Shown piece by piece: positions 14,493 to 55,879 of a stretch of 64,000 nt of DNA. Numbering within the stretch: the first letter of the stretch is position 1; every line of letters begins with the position of its first letter. The stretch is taken from NCBI RefSeq assembly GCF_000981765.1, contig NZ_CP010975.1:1116001-1180000 (forward strand), given 5' to 3'. The DNA comes from Kangiella geojedonensis. GTDB taxonomy: Bacteria > Pseudomonadota > Gammaproteobacteria > Enterobacterales > Kangiellaceae. Under the pieces are notes generated by a model, which ran no database searches, was not told the DNA's origin, and saw only the letters and a list, made by a program, of their open reading frames with translations. A program made the translations under genes and the position numbers.

Positions 14493-14558
14493 TTCCTTGC
14501 TTTTTAGTCCTTCTATGACAACAATGCAGTTATTGTTTTTTATAAAAGGAGTAACGCC

Positions 14559-15260
14559 ATGAGTTTGAAGCGTTTATTAATTGTAGTGATCGCCTTTGTG
14601 ACCTTAGGCTGCCGTGCTGATAGTTTGGATGAGGAGCAGCCTGAGCACCCAGGTTCCAATTCAGAATTACCAAGAGACTTCACTTTAACCGCTGGTGAGA
14701 AAGTGTTATTCAATAATGTGGAGTTTGAATTTGAACGAATAAAGGAAGACTCTCGTTGTCCCAAAGGAACTCAATGCATACATCAAGGTAGTGCCAGCCT
14801 TGTGGTTAATTACACTTTGGAAGAAACGCCTATACAAAAAGTGATGACCATCGGCGGAGCTGATGAAGATTCACGCTTAAAAATTAATGATATGACGGTA
14901 CAACTAGGTTATCTAAAGCCGTACCCAGCCACGAACATTAGAATAGACCCTGCTAATTATAAGGCTCATTTCATTGTAATGGACGACAAAACTCTTAATG
15001 ATGCTGTGGTCTTGGACGTTCGCACTCAGCAGGAGTTTGATAGTGGCCATTATCCTCAAGCGGACCATATTCCTTATGATGAGATTTCTGAGCGTGCTAC
15101 AGAGCTTGATTTTGCTAAAGATGAACGAGTAGTAGTTTACTGTCGAAGTGGCAACCGTGCCGGTAAAGCAACGGCGACATTAAATCAGCTGGGTTATACC
15201 AACGTGATTAATGGCGTGGATCAGGACACAGTAGAGAAGCTGATGGGTAGCGAGGAATAA
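14559..15260 (+). CDS. Lipoprotein with C-terminal rhodanese domain
   Basis: A 233-residue predicted lipoprotein. The signal peptide ends in the lipobox VTLGC (Cys at about residue 18), preceded by AAAAGGAG. Residues about 40-135 form a beta-rich region with SRCPKGTQCIHQGSASLVV, a Cys-containing motif seen in small uncharacterised lipoproteins. Residues about 140-233 are a rhodanese domain: VVLDVRTQQEFDSGHYPQA and the active-site loop VVYCRSGNRAGKA with catalytic Cys present. The domain probably acts on periplasmic sulfur compounds or thiols; this is inference. It overlaps nothing and lies 3 nt before the glyoxalase-fold gene, with which it is probably cotranscribed. The domain combination is unusual. 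Confidence 0.82.
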   Translation: MSLKRLLIVVIAFVTLGCRADSLDEEQPEHPGSNSELPRDFTLTAGEKVLFNNVEFEFERIKEDSRCPKGTQCIHQGSASLVVNYTLEETPIQKVMTIGGADEDSRLKINDMTVQLGYLKPYPATNIRIDPANYKAHFIVMDDKTLNDAVVLDVRTQQEFDSGHYPQADHIPYDEISERATELDFAKDERVVVYCRSGNRAGKATATLNQLGYTNVINGVDQDTVEKLMGSEE

Positions 15261-36736: not shown

Positions 36737-37057
36737 ATGGACTTTTCTCAACTCATCAAAACTCTAACCCCTGACATGATCGAGCGCTTCACGGTAGCGG
36801 TCGAAACGGGTAAATGGCCTGATGGTGCCGTTCTTACCGAACAGCAAAAAGAAACCTGTATCCAAGCTATCATGTTATATAAAGCACGTCATAGCGAAGA
36901 CGATAGCGAGCCATTCACAGTGACTAAAACTGGGGATTTAGTGACGGGTAAGAAAGTGCGGGACGAGTTTCCAGGAAAGTCTGCTAACGAGAGTGAATCT
37001 AAAGATACCTTCATTGTCGATCCATCAATGATAATTCCTGGCAAGGATACGCATTAG
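36737..37057 (+). CDS. yeaC: YeaC-like DUF1315 protein
   Basis: A 106-residue protein resembling E. coli YeaC: MDFSQLIKTLTPDMIERF, then VAVETGKWPDGAVLTEQQKE and QAIMLYKARHSE. The start at 36737 was taken from homology to YeaC; the open frame runs 16 codons further upstream. The function of the family is unknown. The Ser/Asp-rich tail beyond residue 65 is extra. It lies immediately before the OsmC-family gene and probably shares its mRNA. Confidence 0.82.
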   Translation: MDFSQLIKTLTPDMIERFTVAVETGKWPDGAVLTEQQKETCIQAIMLYKARHSEDDSEPFTVTKTGDLVTGKKVRDEFPGKSANESESKDTFIVDPSMIIPGKDTH

Positions 37058-37064
37058 GCTTAGT

Positions 37065-37535
37065 ATTTCGCAACACTATGCTCGTATCAGTTGGTCTCGC
37101 GGTGACCAAGCATTCCTAGATAACCAATACAGCCGCGGTCATCAGTGGTCGTTTGATGGTGGCGCAATCGTTGAGGCATCTTCATCCCCGCACATTGTTC
37201 CTTTGCCGTATTCTGTGGAAGCTAATGTTGATCCTGAAGAAGCTTTTGTGGCTTCGTTATCCAGCTGCCATATGTTGTTCTTTTTGTCGATTGCCGCTAA
37301 AAAACGTCTGTTAGTAGACAGCTATCAAGATCAGGCTGTTGGAATCATGGGTAAGGACGAACAAGGAAAGGCATTTGTCGAAACTGTCACTTTAAAACCA
37401 AAAGTCGTGTTTTCAGGCGAGAAAATACCCAGCCGAGCAGTGCTTGAGAAAATGCATCACCAAGCACACGAGCTATGCTTTATCGCTAACTCGGTAAAAA
37501 CAAAGGTCATCACGGAAATTGTTGAGAGCGATTAA
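37065..37535 (+). CDS. OsmC/Ohr-family peroxiredoxin-like protein with probable ATT start
   Basis: The domain clearly extends upstream of the first conventional start (TTG, 37203). Translating the open frame back gives I-S-Q-H-Y-A-R-I-S-W-S-R-G-D-Q-A-F-L-D-N and then SSPHIVPLPYSVEANVDPEEAFVASLSSCHMLFF, the normal N-terminal part of this OsmC subfamily. No ATG, GTG or TTG exists in the frame between its upstream stop (37032-37034) and 37203. ATT at 37065, with AGG 6 nt before it, gives 156 residues starting like known members; ATT at 37053, inside the yeaC stop region and 5 nt after AAGGA, is the alternative. Both family cysteines are present (SSCHMLFF and HELCFIANS). The protein reduces organic hydroperoxides, by family knowledge. 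It overlaps the ansA 3' end by 4 nt. Confidence 0.78.
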   Translation: MSQHYARISWSRGDQAFLDNQYSRGHQWSFDGGAIVEASSSPHIVPLPYSVEANVDPEEAFVASLSSCHMLFFLSIAAKKRLLVDSYQDQAVGIMGKDEQGKAFVETVTLKPKVVFSGEKIPSRAVLEKMHHQAHELCFIANSVKTKVITEIVESD

Positions 37536-38545
37536 TTAGTCAGCTCACCGCGTAAGCTAATCACCATATTCTCACGAATCGTTTTAGCATCAAGGCCACG
37601 ACTGAATAGATAATAAAGCTTGGCCAAGGCAGCCTCGGTGGTCATATCAAAGCCGGAAGTGACGCCAGCATCCATCAATACTTTACCGGTTTCATAGGTG
37701 CTCATATTAACTGAGCCTTTCAAGCACTGGGTGCAGTTAACAATAACTTTTCCCTGGCTTGTTGCGTCTTTTATCGCCTGCATCAGTGGCTTGTTGTTGA
37801 CTGGAGCATTACCCGCGCCAAAGCTTTGTAACACCACACCGTCCAAATCTTGGGCAAGAAAATCACGGACCAAATCATCGGAGATACCGGGGAATAAGGT
37901 TAAAATCGCAATCTTAGGCGAGCTAAAACGGCGAACGGTTAGCTCCTTGTGTTTACGCTGCCAGATTAAATGTTCACGAACTTTAATGGTGCTACCGATA
38001 CTTGCGAGAGGCGGCATATTGGGCGAACTAAAAGCAGCAAAACCATCAGCATCTGTTTTAATGGTGCGATTGCCGCGATGTAAATGATCATGGAAAAACA
38101 AACTGACTTCAGGAATGGGGTAGTTGGCTGCAAGATAAACCGCATTAATTAAGTTATCGCGCGCGTCGGTTCTGAGCTGCGTTAACGGAATTTGTGAACC
38201 CGTGAAAATAACCGGCTTTTGTAACCCCTCAAGCATAAAAGACAAAGCTGAAGCCGTATAAGCCATGGTGTCAGTGCCGTGTAGCACCACAAAACCATCG
38301 TAATCTTCATAGTTACGCTCAATGTCTTCAGCGATCTGGTGCCAGTCTTCTGGTGACATATTGGCAGAGTCAATCGGCTCAGCATAATCATGAATCGTGA
38401 TTTCCGGCATATCAGGATGCTGGAACTCAGGAAAGCTCTGTAAGGTTGCGCCGAGAAAGCCTTTTTGTGGCACAAAACCTTGGTCACTGGGCTTCATCCC
38501 AATGGTGCCGCCAGTGTATGCGATGTAGACTTTCTTCTTTGCCAT
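37532..38545 (-). CDS. ansA: L-asparaginase type I (cytoplasmic)
   Basis: It hydrolyses asparagine to aspartate and ammonia. The 337 residues match the cytoplasmic AnsA. The first catalytic Thr lies in YIAYTGGTIGMKPSDQG and the second in VVLHGTDTMAYTASALSFML; VIFTGSQIPLTQLRTDARDN and GVVLQSFGAGNAP are typical. No signal peptide is present, which excludes the periplasmic type II enzyme. It converges on the OsmC-family gene with a 4-nt overlap, leaving no room for a separate terminator. Confidence 0.96.
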   Translation of the reverse strand: MAKKKVYIAYTGGTIGMKPSDQGFVPQKGFLGATLQSFPEFQHPDMPEITIHDYAEPIDSANMSPEDWHQIAEDIERNYEDYDGFVVLHGTDTMAYTASALSFMLEGLQKPVIFTGSQIPLTQLRTDARDNLINAVYLAANYPIPEVSLFFHDHLHRGNRTIKTDADGFAAFSSPNMPPLASIGSTIKVREHLIWQRKHKELTVRRFSSPKIAILTLFPGISDDLVRDFLAQDLDGVVLQSFGAGNAPVNNKPLMQAIKDATSQGKVIVNCTQCLKGSVNMSTYETGKVLMDAGVTSGFDMTTEAALAKLYYLFSRGLDAKTIRENMVISLRGELTN

Positions 38546-38656
38546 AATAGTTGTAGTTGGTTACAGTTAGCTAAGTCAGGAGTATATATATTTGTGACCA
38601 GATAAAAAAGTATCAATCTTCTATACAACACCAAACCATATGTGAGAGCTCCACTA

Positions 38657-39265
38657 ATGAAAACCTTCTTTCTGTTATTGTTAACATTCCTAGCTCTATT
38701 ATCGTCAAAATCGACTATATCTCGATCTACTCCAGCTATTTGGGAAAGTTTTATTAGCAGCTCGGAATTAATTGTCGATGGGAAAGTGATTAAAGCTGAA
38801 TATGGCCAATCAAGATTTGATGAGGTTGAATCAGTAAAGCTTTGGTTACAAGTTTCAGAGATATATACTTCAAATGAACAATATTCTAGCCTAAAAACTA
38901 TTGAGGTTATTACTGATTGGAGCGTCAACCAAGCCGAAGTAGGGGCTAGAGGATTGTTCTTTCTTAGAAAAAAAGACGAAGTGTTTTATATATTTGATCC
39001 AGATGTTGGTTATTGGGAGGAGCAATTTAGGCTTATACAGGATGGGGCTAGCCAGTTTTGTGATTTAGACAAATTCGATAGAGCAAGAGTCTATAACGTT
39101 CCGATGCTATACCTAGCAGGCATCCCTGATGAATACTGGGAGCCTGGTTACTTTGCGGACTACACCTGTGCAAATGTAGAAAAAGGAACTCCTCTTGGGG
39201 TATTTAAGAAGCAAATTATTTTGAAAGCTGAAAATGTAAAGCCTCAGCTAAAAAGTATATTTTAA
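38657..39265 (+). CDS. Uncharacterised secreted protein, 202 residues
   Basis: I do not recognise it. The ATG at 38657 gives a signal peptide (MKTFFLLLLTFLALLSSKST); the GTG five codons upstream is less likely. The rest is beta-rich with ISSSELIVDGKVIKAEYGQS and LQVSEIYTSNEQYSSLKTIE, reminiscent of small secreted proteins of unknown function, and has one Cys pair (SQFCDLDK and YTCANVEK). AGA/AGG arginine codons prevail and A/T content is high, so it may be acquired. It stands alone between divergent ansA and convergent peptidase. Confidence 0.75.
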   Translation: MKTFFLLLLTFLALLSSKSTISRSTPAIWESFISSSELIVDGKVIKAEYGQSRFDEVESVKLWLQVSEIYTSNEQYSSLKTIEVITDWSVNQAEVGARGLFFLRKKDEVFYIFDPDVGYWEEQFRLIQDGASQFCDLDKFDRARVYNVPMLYLAGIPDEYWEPGYFADYTCANVEKGTPLGVFKKQIILKAENVKPQLKSIF

Positions 39266-51419: not shown

Positions 51420-51448
51420 TAGACAAGGTGCAGGACTAGGAATATATT
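51420..51448 (+). promoter_or_regulatory. Predicted sigma-70 promoter of the collagen-like gene
   Basis: TAGACA (51420-51425) and TATATT (51443-51448) each match the consensus at five of six bases and are 17 nt apart. The start of transcription would be near 51455, giving a leader of about 118 nt before the ATG at 51573. Confidence 0.5.
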
Positions 51449-51572
51449 TATAAATTCGTACAAAAGTAATGCATTTATGCATTGCAAAAGGGTGGTAAAG
51501 GATTACCAAAAGGTGATGTTTTATTGTGTTTACCAAAAAGCATTTTTACAGGTTTCAGTGGAGGGAGTTCTT

Positions 51573-53876
51573 ATGAACCGACCAACATTATCCCTAGCTC
51601 AGTCTAGTCTAGCTATTGGACTACTGCTAGCCTCACAAATAGGCGCAACTGCGCCTAAGATTCACGAAGTTCAACCATACCCGTCGGATTCGCCGACCAA
51701 TTTAGTTATTTGGGGCGTTGGGTTTGATAGTCCCAGTATTTATTTTGGAACGCACACGGACCCACTTGCTATCAGCGCTGATCAGTCAGCGTGTGTCGAT
51801 ATGGAGTTCAATCCAGCTCCGCCATTAGATCCCACCGACTTTCAGTGTGTGGTTGTTGATTTGCCGTATGTAACCAATGGTACTCCCGCTGTTCCTTCCG
51901 GAGATTACCTGTTAAAGATTGTCGTCGAAGGGGAAATTAATATATGTGGTGACACAAAGCCCACATCGATAACGTTTCTTTATGAGCCCTCGAATTGCTC
52001 TGGAGTAAATTATCAAAGTAATGCTAGTTGCTCAGGTGACATGACAGGAGCAATCGGTGGTACCGATATTTCAGTATTTGGAAAGGATGCTGATAAATGG
52101 TACTTCCCTCCAGTAATTTTCCCTGGTGAACATATAAGTTTTGGTCCAGATCCATCGTCTTATAACGATAACGGTAGGATTTGGGGTAATCAGTTAAACA
52201 TTGAGTTCAGTGAAAACGGTTTAAATCAAACTATAGGCTTACATACCTCTTGTTCAGAACCATTAAATATTGGTGATACCTTCGGTAGCTTCGTACTTGT
52301 CGATTTTGAAGGAAGTGCTGGAGAACCTACTGATCAAATTGACTTATACGATTTAACTATTGGCGCTACTGGCCCAGCAGGTCCAGAAGGCCCTCAAGGC
52401 CCGCAAGGTAAAAAAGGTGATGCTGGTGATCAAGGCCCTACAGGCCCTCAGGGTGATCAAGGTCCACAAGGTAAATTAGGTCCAGCAGGTGCTGATGGTG
52501 AAGATGGTCAAGATGGTGCTCAAGGCCCACAAGGTAAAGTCGGCGCTAAAGGTGATACCGGTGACCAAGGTCCACAAGGTAAAGTCGGCGCTAAAGGGGA
52601 TACCGGTGACCAAGGTCCACAAGGTAAAGTCGGCGCTAAAGGTGATACCGGTGACCAAGGTCCACAAGGTAAAGTCGGCGCTAAAGGGGATACCGGTGAC
52701 CAAGGTCCACAAGGTAAAGTCGGCGCTAAAGGTGATACCGGTGACCAAGGTCCACAAGGTAAAGTCGGCGCTAAAGGGGATACCGGTGACCAAGGTCCAC
52801 AAGGTAAAGTCGGCGCTAAAGGTGATACCGGTGACCAAGGTCCACAAGGTAAAGTCGGCGCTAAAGGTGATACCGGTGACCAAGGTCCACAAGGTAAAGT
52901 CGGCGCTAAAGGGGATACCGGTGACCAAGGTCCACAAGGTAAAGTTGGTGCTAAAGGTGATACCGGTGACCAAGGTCCACAAGGTAAAGTCGGCGCTAAA
53001 GGGGATACCGGTGACCAAGGTCCACAAGGTAAAGTCGGCGCTAAAGGTGATACCGGTGACCAAGGTCCACAAGGTAAAGTCGGCGCTAAAGGGGATACCG
53101 GTGACCAAGGTCCACAAGGTAAAGTTGGTCCAGCGGGTGTTGACGGTCAAGATGGTGCACAGGGGCCACAAGGTAAAATGGGTCTAAAAGGTGACACTGG
53201 AGACCAGGGCCCACAAGGTAAAATTGGTCCAGCTGGTGCTGATGGTCAAGATGGTGCTCAGGGTCCACAAGGTAAAATGGGTCTAAAAGGTGACACTGGT
53301 GATCAAGGTCCTCAGGGCAAAATTGGCCCTCAAGGTAACCAAGGTCCACAAGGTAAAGCTGGTGCTAAAGGCGATACCGGTGATCAAGGTCCTCAAGGTA
53401 AAGTTGGTCCTAAAGGTGACAAAGGGGATAAAGGGGATGCCGGAGATGATGGTATCGGCTCTAACCTAATGTGTTTCAGTACTGACCAAACCATTGGCAC
53501 TCAAGGTAAGTTCATGGGACTCGGTCAACAAGCTGGTGATCATGACAGCGTTGGTGTTATCAGTCCATTTGCCGCTGGTGCAGAAGTCTTAACGCTGGTA
53601 GTGAAAGCTGCTCAAGGTAATAACGCTAACTCTGGTGTCGCGGTCTTGTATCATGATGCCTCAGGGGGCGCGCAAGGCGGTGAACCAGTAGGAACTGCAC
53701 CGAATAATCAGTGTGTTCTTAGTGATACTCCTGTGAAAAGCGTTTGTAAAATCACTTTCAGTACCAATAATGCGCTTGAGTTGTTCGATAGTTTGAGTGT
53801 GTTTATCCAAACTGATGGAGGTAGTTTCGAAGGTGGCTCAGCTTGTATCTTAATCGACCCTGATGGTACTGATTAA
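51573..53876 (+). CDS. Secreted collagen-like repeat protein with IPT/TIG-like N-terminus
   Basis: A 767-residue exported protein. The ATG at 51573 was chosen because GGAGG lies 8 nt upstream and a signal peptide follows (LSLAQSSLAIGLLLASQIGA); the open frame runs 32 codons further up. Residues about 25-80 (KIHEVQPYPSDSPTNLVIWG, VGFDSPSIYFG) resemble an IPT/TIG domain. After a Cys-containing stretch comes a G-X-Y region of about 365 residues (52.36-53.46 kb), mainly the unit GKVGAKGDTGDQGPQ. KGD triplets are known to stabilise bacterial collagen triple helices. A 135-residue C-terminal domain with four Cys follows (SNLMCFSTDQ to CILIDPDGTD) and may trimerise. Probable role is an extracellular fibre or adhesin; no anchor was seen. 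Followed by a terminator. Confidence 0.9.
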   Translation: MNRPTLSLAQSSLAIGLLLASQIGATAPKIHEVQPYPSDSPTNLVIWGVGFDSPSIYFGTHTDPLAISADQSACVDMEFNPAPPLDPTDFQCVVVDLPYVTNGTPAVPSGDYLLKIVVEGEINICGDTKPTSITFLYEPSNCSGVNYQSNASCSGDMTGAIGGTDISVFGKDADKWYFPPVIFPGEHISFGPDPSSYNDNGRIWGNQLNIEFSENGLNQTIGLHTSCSEPLNIGDTFGSFVLVDFEGSAGEPTDQIDLYDLTIGATGPAGPEGPQGPQGKKGDAGDQGPTGPQGDQGPQGKLGPAGADGEDGQDGAQGPQGKVGAKGDTGDQGPQGKVGAKGDTGDQGPQGKVGAKGDTGDQGPQGKVGAKGDTGDQGPQGKVGAKGDTGDQGPQGKVGAKGDTGDQGPQGKVGAKGDTGDQGPQGKVGAKGDTGDQGPQGKVGAKGDTGDQGPQGKVGAKGDTGDQGPQGKVGAKGDTGDQGPQGKVGAKGDTGDQGPQGKVGAKGDTGDQGPQGKVGPAGVDGQDGAQGPQGKMGLKGDTGDQGPQGKIGPAGADGQDGAQGPQGKMGLKGDTGDQGPQGKIGPQGNQGPQGKAGAKGDTGDQGPQGKVGPKGDKGDKGDAGDDGIGSNLMCFSTDQTIGTQGKFMGLGQQAGDHDSVGVISPFAAGAEVLTLVVKAAQGNNANSGVAVLYHDASGGAQGGEPVGTAPNNQCVLSDTPVKSVCKITFSTNNALELFDSLSVFIQTDGGSFEGGSACILIDPDGTD
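52533..53117 (+). repeat. Thirteen tandem 45-bp repeats encoding collagen-like units
   Basis: Thirteen in-frame copies of a 45-bp unit encode GKVGAKGDTGDQGPQ. Copies differ mainly at one synonymous site (GGT or GGG before GATACC), in the order T G T G T G T T G T G T G; the tenth copy also has GTTGGT for GTCGGC. More diverged units flank the array up to about 53460. Confidence 0.95.
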
Positions 53877-53890
53877 TATACAACGAGGAT

Positions 53891-53924
53891 GTAGAAAAGC
53901 CTGGCTTAGCCGGGCTTTTTCTAC
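53891..53924 (+). terminator. Intrinsic terminator after the collagen-like gene
   Basis: A long stem GTAGAAAAGCC.GGC with GCC.GGCTTTTTCTAC surrounds a TTA-type loop and carries T in its 3' arm. It separates the collagen-like gene from the LVIVD gene. Confidence 0.75.
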
Positions 53925-53959
53925 GATTAGTGGTGATGTTTAAGATAGGTGGTATGCAA

Positions 53960-55879
53960 ATGAAGGATTTATTTGTATTTAAAATATTCAAACTTGCGGT
54001 TTTATATTGTGTGCTTGTGGTGACGTGTTGCTATGGTCGATTGGTACTAGCTAACCCATCAGAAGTGCGAGTAAGCGATAACGCTATTAATAACGCCGTC
54101 GAAATGACGGGGCGCTGGAATCAAGGACCTGTATATGCCAGCGTTACCAGTGGTAACTATCTCTACTTCGGTTCCTCAGGAACGGTCAGGGTGGTTGCTG
54201 TTGAAAAGGATGGTGCCGGTAATGCTATCGCATGGGAAGAGGTAGCTTCGATAGAAACAGATGGTGTCGTCAGAGATATGATCATTCGTGACAACTATCT
54301 TTATATCGCTGATGGGTCAGGCTGGTTACGCCTGGTCAATGTTAAGAGTCCAAGTAAACCCAAGCTTAGTGGAGCACTTGAGCTGAACAGTGAAATCAAA
54401 GCCATACATTTTGAAGGTGAGCGTGTGTATATTGCTGCTGGCTGGGATGGGATCCATGTTATCGACGTTTCAAAACCAAATAAGCCCGAGCTTATCAACA
54501 GCGCTCCATCGAAAGGGTACTCATTAGATGTTGTAGTGAAAGACTCTATCGCATATGTGGCAGCAGGCCATGATGCTGGATTACAAATTTCAGACTTGTC
54601 CGAGCCTAATAAGCCGAAAGCCCTAGGCTCGCACCCCATTGCAGGAAGTGCCTCTGGTATTGATACTGATGGTCGTCACGTCTTTGTGGTTAATATGGAC
54701 GATCATGCGCCTAGCCTGAGTATTTTCGATGTTTCCAATAAGGAAAGTCCGACGCAAGTTGCGGCAGAGCCCTTAGAGTATGGCGCTGAAAGAGTTAGGG
54801 TAGAAGGTGATTTAGCCTATGTCGCTGGTGTCGCCAACGATGCTGGATTAATTGTGATAGACGTTTCAGATCCTACAAATCCTAAAAAGTTAGGCGCATG
54901 GTGGGATTCAACATGTTCCGAGTCGGTGACCATTGATAATCAAATTGCTTACTTGGCTCATGGTGATCAGGGCCTCGAAGTATTAGACGTTCGTAAACCT
55001 GATGCACCGACTGTGATTAAACACTTTTCGGCGGCTGGGCACGTTAGAGGGATTGATACTCAAGGAGCTTACGCCTATGTGGCAAACGGTTATCGTGGCT
55101 TGAAAATCGTTGATGTCACTGACAGTGCAAATCCCAAAGATGTTTCCGAGCTTAAAACCTATCGGGCACTGGATGTTGATGTGGCGGGGCCATTTGTTCA
55201 TGTCGCCGATGACTGGGCTGGCTATAAACTGATTGATATCTCAGATCCACAGAACCCAGTTGAAATAGCGGCTCTTGATACGCCTGGTTATGCTGAAGGC
55301 ATCCAAGTGATAGGGCACTACGCCTATATTGCTGATGGTGAAGGCGGACTGCGAATCTTGAATGTGTCTAATCCAGAGCAGCCCGTTGAAGTCGCAGCCG
55401 TGGACTTGGGCGGTTATGCCTATGAAGTCAGTGTGCACAATGACATCGCTTATGTGGCCGCTGGCAAAGCAGGCTTGGTAGCAATTAATGTCAGTATGCC
55501 CACCAGCCCTATCATACTGGATAAATACAAGTTTAATGAGAGAAAATTTGAGGCCAGGGGCGTCGAGCTTAAAGGCAGTCATGCTTATCTTGCTGCAGGT
55601 TACATGGGAATGCTTGTGGTAGATATCACGAGCCCGAACGACTTGAAAAGTGCCGGTATATTCGAGAGTAAAAGGCGCGCTAATAACGTCAGTTTATTTG
55701 GGAATAAAGCTTATTTGATCGACTCTGCATCAGTTAAGGTTCTTGATATCCGCAATCCTGAGGCGCCAGTCTATATTGGCGAACGCGAGTTACCGGCCAA
55801 TGGTGCCCGAATACATGCCAGTGACAACGGCGTGTACGTGGCTGGCATGGAGTCGGGGCTATTAATTTTTGAGCAATAA
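53960..55879 (+). CDS. Secreted LVIVD-repeat beta-propeller protein
   Basis: A 639-residue protein. The ATG at 53960 is preferred because AGGTGG lies 7 nt upstream. A signal peptide (FKLAVLYCVLVVTCCYGRLV) leads to about a dozen repeats of roughly 43 residues such as VYIAAGWDGIHVIDVSKPNK, AYVANGYRGLKIVDVTDSAN and AYIADGEGGLRILNVSNPEQ, which match the LVIVD family and should fold into one or two beta-propellers. No catalytic motif or anchor is seen. It lies directly behind the collagen-like gene, same strand, so a joint extracellular role is possible though a terminator intervenes. Confidence 0.9.
   Translation: MKDLFVFKIFKLAVLYCVLVVTCCYGRLVLANPSEVRVSDNAINNAVEMTGRWNQGPVYASVTSGNYLYFGSSGTVRVVAVEKDGAGNAIAWEEVASIETDGVVRDMIIRDNYLYIADGSGWLRLVNVKSPSKPKLSGALELNSEIKAIHFEGERVYIAAGWDGIHVIDVSKPNKPELINSAPSKGYSLDVVVKDSIAYVAAGHDAGLQISDLSEPNKPKALGSHPIAGSASGIDTDGRHVFVVNMDDHAPSLSIFDVSNKESPTQVAAEPLEYGAERVRVEGDLAYVAGVANDAGLIVIDVSDPTNPKKLGAWWDSTCSESVTIDNQIAYLAHGDQGLEVLDVRKPDAPTVIKHFSAAGHVRGIDTQGAYAYVANGYRGLKIVDVTDSANPKDVSELKTYRALDVDVAGPFVHVADDWAGYKLIDISDPQNPVEIAALDTPGYAEGIQVIGHYAYIADGEGGLRILNVSNPEQPVEVAAVDLGGYAYEVSVHNDIAYVAAGKAGLVAINVSMPTSPIILDKYKFNERKFEARGVELKGSHAYLAAGYMGMLVVDITSPNDLKSAGIFESKRRANNVSLFGNKAYLIDSASVKVLDIRNPEAPVYIGERELPANGARIHASDNGVYVAGMESGLLIFEQ

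Follow-up and report, generated by a model that had tools for sequence, protein, structure and literature searches.

The OsmC reading frame and its surroundings

The DNA analysed here, called the window throughout, is a stretch of 64,000 nucleotides from the genome of the marine bacterium Kangiella geojedonensis, which is available as one contig of 2,495,242 bases and is 100% complete by the figure of the tool used. It contains a stress-protein reading frame of the OsmC family, here called osmC, lying directly behind a yeaC-like gene and facing a convergent gene that we assume to be asparaginase-like. The features of this locus were as follows.

36737–37057, + strand: yeaC-like gene (DUF1315), with the stop TAG at 37055–37057, 7 nt ahead of ATT 37065
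37035–37535, + strand: OsmC-family open frame, from stop to stop, with PF02566 and 2d7v matches and no conventional start before 37203
37043–37047, + strand: AAGGA, Shine–Dalgarno-like, 5 nt upstream of ATT 37053
37053–37055, + strand: alternative in-frame ATT of osmC, having one base in common with the yeaC stop
37065–37067, + strand: ATT at the family's start-codon position of osmC, from comparison with orthologs at 106 other loci
37203–37205, + strand: TTG, the first conventional in-frame start of osmC, unlikely to be the real one
37532–38545, − strand: convergent asparaginase-like gene, the neighbour serving as synteny marker

The osmC frame is preceded by an in-frame TAA at 37032–37034, its own stop ends at 37535, and its translation opens FLARIRIRLS-ISQHYARISW...; an AGG is furthermore found at 37056–37058. 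The first in-frame ATG, GTG or TTG is the TTG at 37203, located 46 conserved codons past the expected start. The first-pass annotation had reported 46 codons of OsmC sequence without any ordinary start ahead of this TTG, which was confirmed at exactly those positions, and its warning that annotation demanding ATG, GTG or TTG would yield a truncated protein also held, as no such codon occurs before 37203.

With regard to identity, the translated frame matched the Pfam OsmC family (PF02566) at 50 bits, with a cut-off of 27.5, and PDB entry 2d7v (VCA0330, OsmC family) could be aligned over residues 10–163 with an E value of 2e-64. Scores for two NCBIfam subfamilies stayed far below their cut-offs (Ohr, 20.7 vs 88.85; SACOL1771, 24.6 vs 166.15). 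Cys78 and Cys148 were invariant in an alignment of 46 rows, comprising the window protein and 45 orthologs, and we take these to be the two conserved cysteines of the OsmC family (PF02566). The structure predicted using 46 sequences (mean pLDDT 80.5) showed low confidence for residues 1–10 and a first strand at residues 13–21, and a predicted fold beginning just past residue 11, encoded by ATT 37065, is as expected if that residue is the start. That the protein should instead truly begin at TTG 37203, the first conventional start in frame, is hardly credible, because this site has no Shine–Dalgarno sequence (+1.5 kcal/mol) and its use would delete the predicted strands 13–21, 36–40 and 45–47 together with conserved codons (dN 0.012). 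Many of the residues encoded upstream of this TTG are invariant among the window protein and the 45 orthologs.

Start codons and constraint in osmC orthologs

Reading the codon aligned with ATT 37065 at 106 other loci, taken in part from the best 80 of 222 of one search, we found ATG in 99, GTG in five, TTG in two and ATT in none. This total combined loci L003–L032 from the genus and order searches, having ATG in 30 of 30, with the best 80 of 222 confirmed loci from the contig search (ATG 73, GTG 5, TTG 2), after dropping L033, L034, L035 and L048 as present in both sets and keeping further repeats between the sets. The order search matched 52 of 197 genomes, and its weaker places without a locus were left out of the start-codon reading. 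On the question raised in the first-pass annotation, whether related strains have ATG at 37065, all five Kangiella orthologs found have ATG at the start position, and of the two ATT codons that it had offered as candidates, homology at the 106 loci identifies 37065 as the start position of the family. As judged from the aligned sequences, the ATT is thus private to this genome among the loci read, the species being covered by one genome.

The assignment of the position was also supported by the codons that follow. Residues 12–18 matched the profile of the 106 orthologs to a degree equalled by only 1e-5 of 200,000 random 21-mers from the window, a set that contains stretches with stops, which score low, and in-register homology of the first osmC codons to a single relative had P values from 2.5e-5 (G016) to 4.0e-3 (G017). 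Among viral contigs, 46 stretches matched a pattern and none of them encodes a relative. The sequences show that 37065 is the position of the family's start codon and that the frame is otherwise undamaged and under constraint. Comparison with the closest relative, G017 (92% identical), gave dN 0.038 and dS 0.545 for the gene and dN 0.012 and dS 0.345 for codons 10–46 ahead of the TTG, with less similarity in codons 2–9, where 12 of 24 bases differ. No stops or frameshifts were found in the osmC frame, and dN/dS against G017 gave no sign of relaxed constraint; loss of the start codon, as expected of a pseudogene, was however found, with ATT in place of ATG, GTG or TTG. An intact and constrained frame implies that the change to ATT happened recently, that residual AUU initiation makes it tolerable, or that it is a base error, and with no decay to be seen the death of the gene, if it is dead, must have been recent.

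An error in the single genome record is an unlikely but sensible explanation, as one substitution would suffice and the remaining gene shows no decay. The record is, however, one complete contig, codons 2–7 also differ strongly from G017, so that more than a single base of the region is out of the ordinary, and the starts of the other comparable genes in the window are kept. For the latter control, 46 non-overlapping frames of at least 80 codons were taken from the window. An alignment with a relative was possible for 45 of these, and 42 had a conventional start in common with it within 30 codons of the beginning of the frame, which means that the window does not suffer from start loss in general. 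The three exceptions were osmC, an antisense frame at 137–490, and 51423–53873, the last of which does have an ATG in common with G003 according to a separate scan. Frames 14508–15257 and 38606–39262 each have a conventional start of their own. In the long frame at 51423–53873, collagen-like repeats accompany a DUF7467 domain; it is immediately followed by a predicted beta-propeller protein with LVIVD repeats at 53873–55876.

A second way of losing the ATG would be a local rearrangement, in which 37057–37074 derives from the ancestral osmC codons 1–7 displaced by 10 nt, with the frame restored by an insertion at the same time or afterwards. This segment does resemble codons 1–7 of osmC in three of the five Kangiella relatives when shifted by 10 nt, matching G017 at 16 of 18 positions (the largest value among 500 random pairs being 14 of 18), with exact runs of 11 (G017), 12 (G006) and 10 (G019), compared to at most 9 in 5,565 other ortholog pairs, which are not independent; the test was moreover picked after the match had been seen. 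The runs with G003 and G016 were only 4 and 5, and the in-register reading fits the family profile and several relatives. When four gap costs were tried, G019 and G003 aligned in register at all four, whereas G017 went out of register at two, namely with cheap gap extension. We consider such a rearrangement improbable.

The gene is patchily distributed. A match to osmC was obtained in six of 20 genomes of the genus, or six of the 18 near-complete ones, with none found in the other 14 of the 20. In two close relatives, G018 and G005 (loci L117 and L119), the asparaginase gene comes next after yeaC without osmC in between, which suggests, from gene order, that osmC was lost in this clade. The genus Kangiella is described as having reduced genomes in a passage of PMC6000758.

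Initiation sites and the probable fate of the allele

The predicted Shine–Dalgarno energy at ATT 37065 was −2.4 kcal/mol, a value equalled by 36% of random window positions, and that at ATT 37053 was −5.2 kcal/mol, equalled by 7%, to be compared with −5.8 kcal/mol for infC and a median of −6.1 kcal/mol for osmC of the orthologs. The AAGGA at 37043–37047 has no counterpart at that place in G017, G019 or G003. CTG 37038 was considered as start and rejected, having no Shine–Dalgarno sequence (+0.6 kcal/mol), and a YeaC–OsmC frameshift fusion, conceivable as the frames overlap at 37035–37057, was likewise discarded, with no sign of it noticed in relatives. RNA structure at the osmC start was not significant in three stretches of the window (z −0.37, −1.42 and 0.30). 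G019 (Kangiella taiwanensis) has its osmC ATG 7 nt past the yeaC stop, with a site of −1.5 kcal/mol; a weak site by itself does therefore not mean loss, as this relative has an equally weak one together with ATG, and the same 7-nt spacing makes translational coupling of osmC to yeaC plausible on the basis of the gene layout.

The simplest account of the start change in osmC is a private substitution of ATT for ATG in a dispensable gene, and we give a probability of roughly 0.55 to such a substitution having produced a low-expression or dying allele. Initiation would then have fallen to a low level, with ribosomes that end yeaC at 37055–37057 perhaps re-initiating weakly at AUU 37065, or with ribosomes possibly starting at AUU 37053 behind AAGGA, and the outcome would be a weak or dying osmC in a genus where the gene is patchy. 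The start codons of the 106 loci, the in-register homology, the beginning of the predicted fold, the patchiness and the weak site at 37065 argue for this explanation; the lack of decay, the AUU-type infC starts of the genus and the equally weak site of G019 argue against it.

It is possible, though a good deal less probable, that AUU at 37065 or 37053 is a working start giving useful levels of protein, perhaps tuned by IF3 and coupled to yeaC. The frame is intact and constrained, the gap to the yeaC stop is 7 nt as in G019, the site at 37053 has AAGGA at 5 nt and approaches infC in energy, and infC of the same genome has ATT. However, such an AUU is conserved at no other locus read and the site at 37065 is weak, whereas the proven AUU start of Staphylococcus aureus cvfC1 is described in an excerpt of PMC13009471 as lying behind a very strong, extended and conserved Shine–Dalgarno sequence. 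The change from AUG to AUU was one of 61,358 reconstructed start switches, where annotation may hide others (PMC5622118, in excerpt). Non-canonical starts gave about 10% of AUG reporter expression (PMC13009471, same excerpt), and extra IF3 in E. coli reduces re-initiation at AUG without Shine–Dalgarno sequence, as stated in part of PMC2268962. Taken together, these points speak for residual translation at a weak level rather than for a regulatory start that has evolved. A relocation in progress, with the start moved 12 nt upstream to a yeaC-coupled and IF3-sensitive AUU 37053 after loss of the ATG, seems very unlikely.

At this locus, a gene that is conserved elsewhere has had its start codon changed to ATT in one genome, the frame being intact apart from that. 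If the AUU is used, osmC would join the small number of genes outside infC that begin with AUU and would allow the tolerance of, or compensation for, a weak start to be studied in a natural case; if it is not used, the locus would show an early step of gene loss. No paper joining Kangiella, OsmC and start codon turned up among those searched.

Comparison with infC and other non-standard starts

The first-pass annotation had drawn a parallel with infC, where AUU starts are regulatory. The infC start of this genome was located as follows.

L137, about 1451–1467 (C1, near 818,130): infC start, ATT AAA AAA GGT, 8 nt after AGAGGA

ATT or ATC was found near the expected infC start in all 19 Kangiella loci read, and in 18 of them the stretch from the upstream stop to the IF3 motif contains no ATG, GTG or TTG; the remaining locus, that of G016, has a frame that is open further upstream with some conventional starts inside. 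By sequence, the genus Kangiella thus uses AUU-type starts in infC, but in osmC the ATT is private to this genome. An evolved, infC-like regulatory start in osmC found no support in this comparison, since infC has ATT or ATC throughout the genus while the 106 other osmC loci yielded not a single ATT, and since 37065 is without a good Shine–Dalgarno sequence, that at 37053 being fair; a conserved regulatory role for the osmC ATT is accordingly not supported by the sequences compared.

Like infC of E. coli and Kangiella, osmC of the window has AUU where the start codon belongs, and infC of the same genome also has ATT. The unusual start of infC is, however, genus-wide and placed behind AGAGGA, in contrast to the private ATT 37065 of osmC with its weak site. 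It resembles cvfC1 of S. aureus in being a candidate AUU start outside infC, although the AUU of cvfC1 and its strong Shine–Dalgarno sequence are both conserved among staphylococci (PMC13009471, in the part cited), neither of which is true of osmC. For Streptomyces sigR, with a GTC start repressed by IF3, a non-standard start outside infC has likewise been proposed, and that start was tested by experiment (PMC5472188, in excerpt), while the osmC start is a prediction from sequence. As an OsmC protein, finally, the product is like VCA0330 (2d7v), the start codon being the one unusual feature of the gene in the window.
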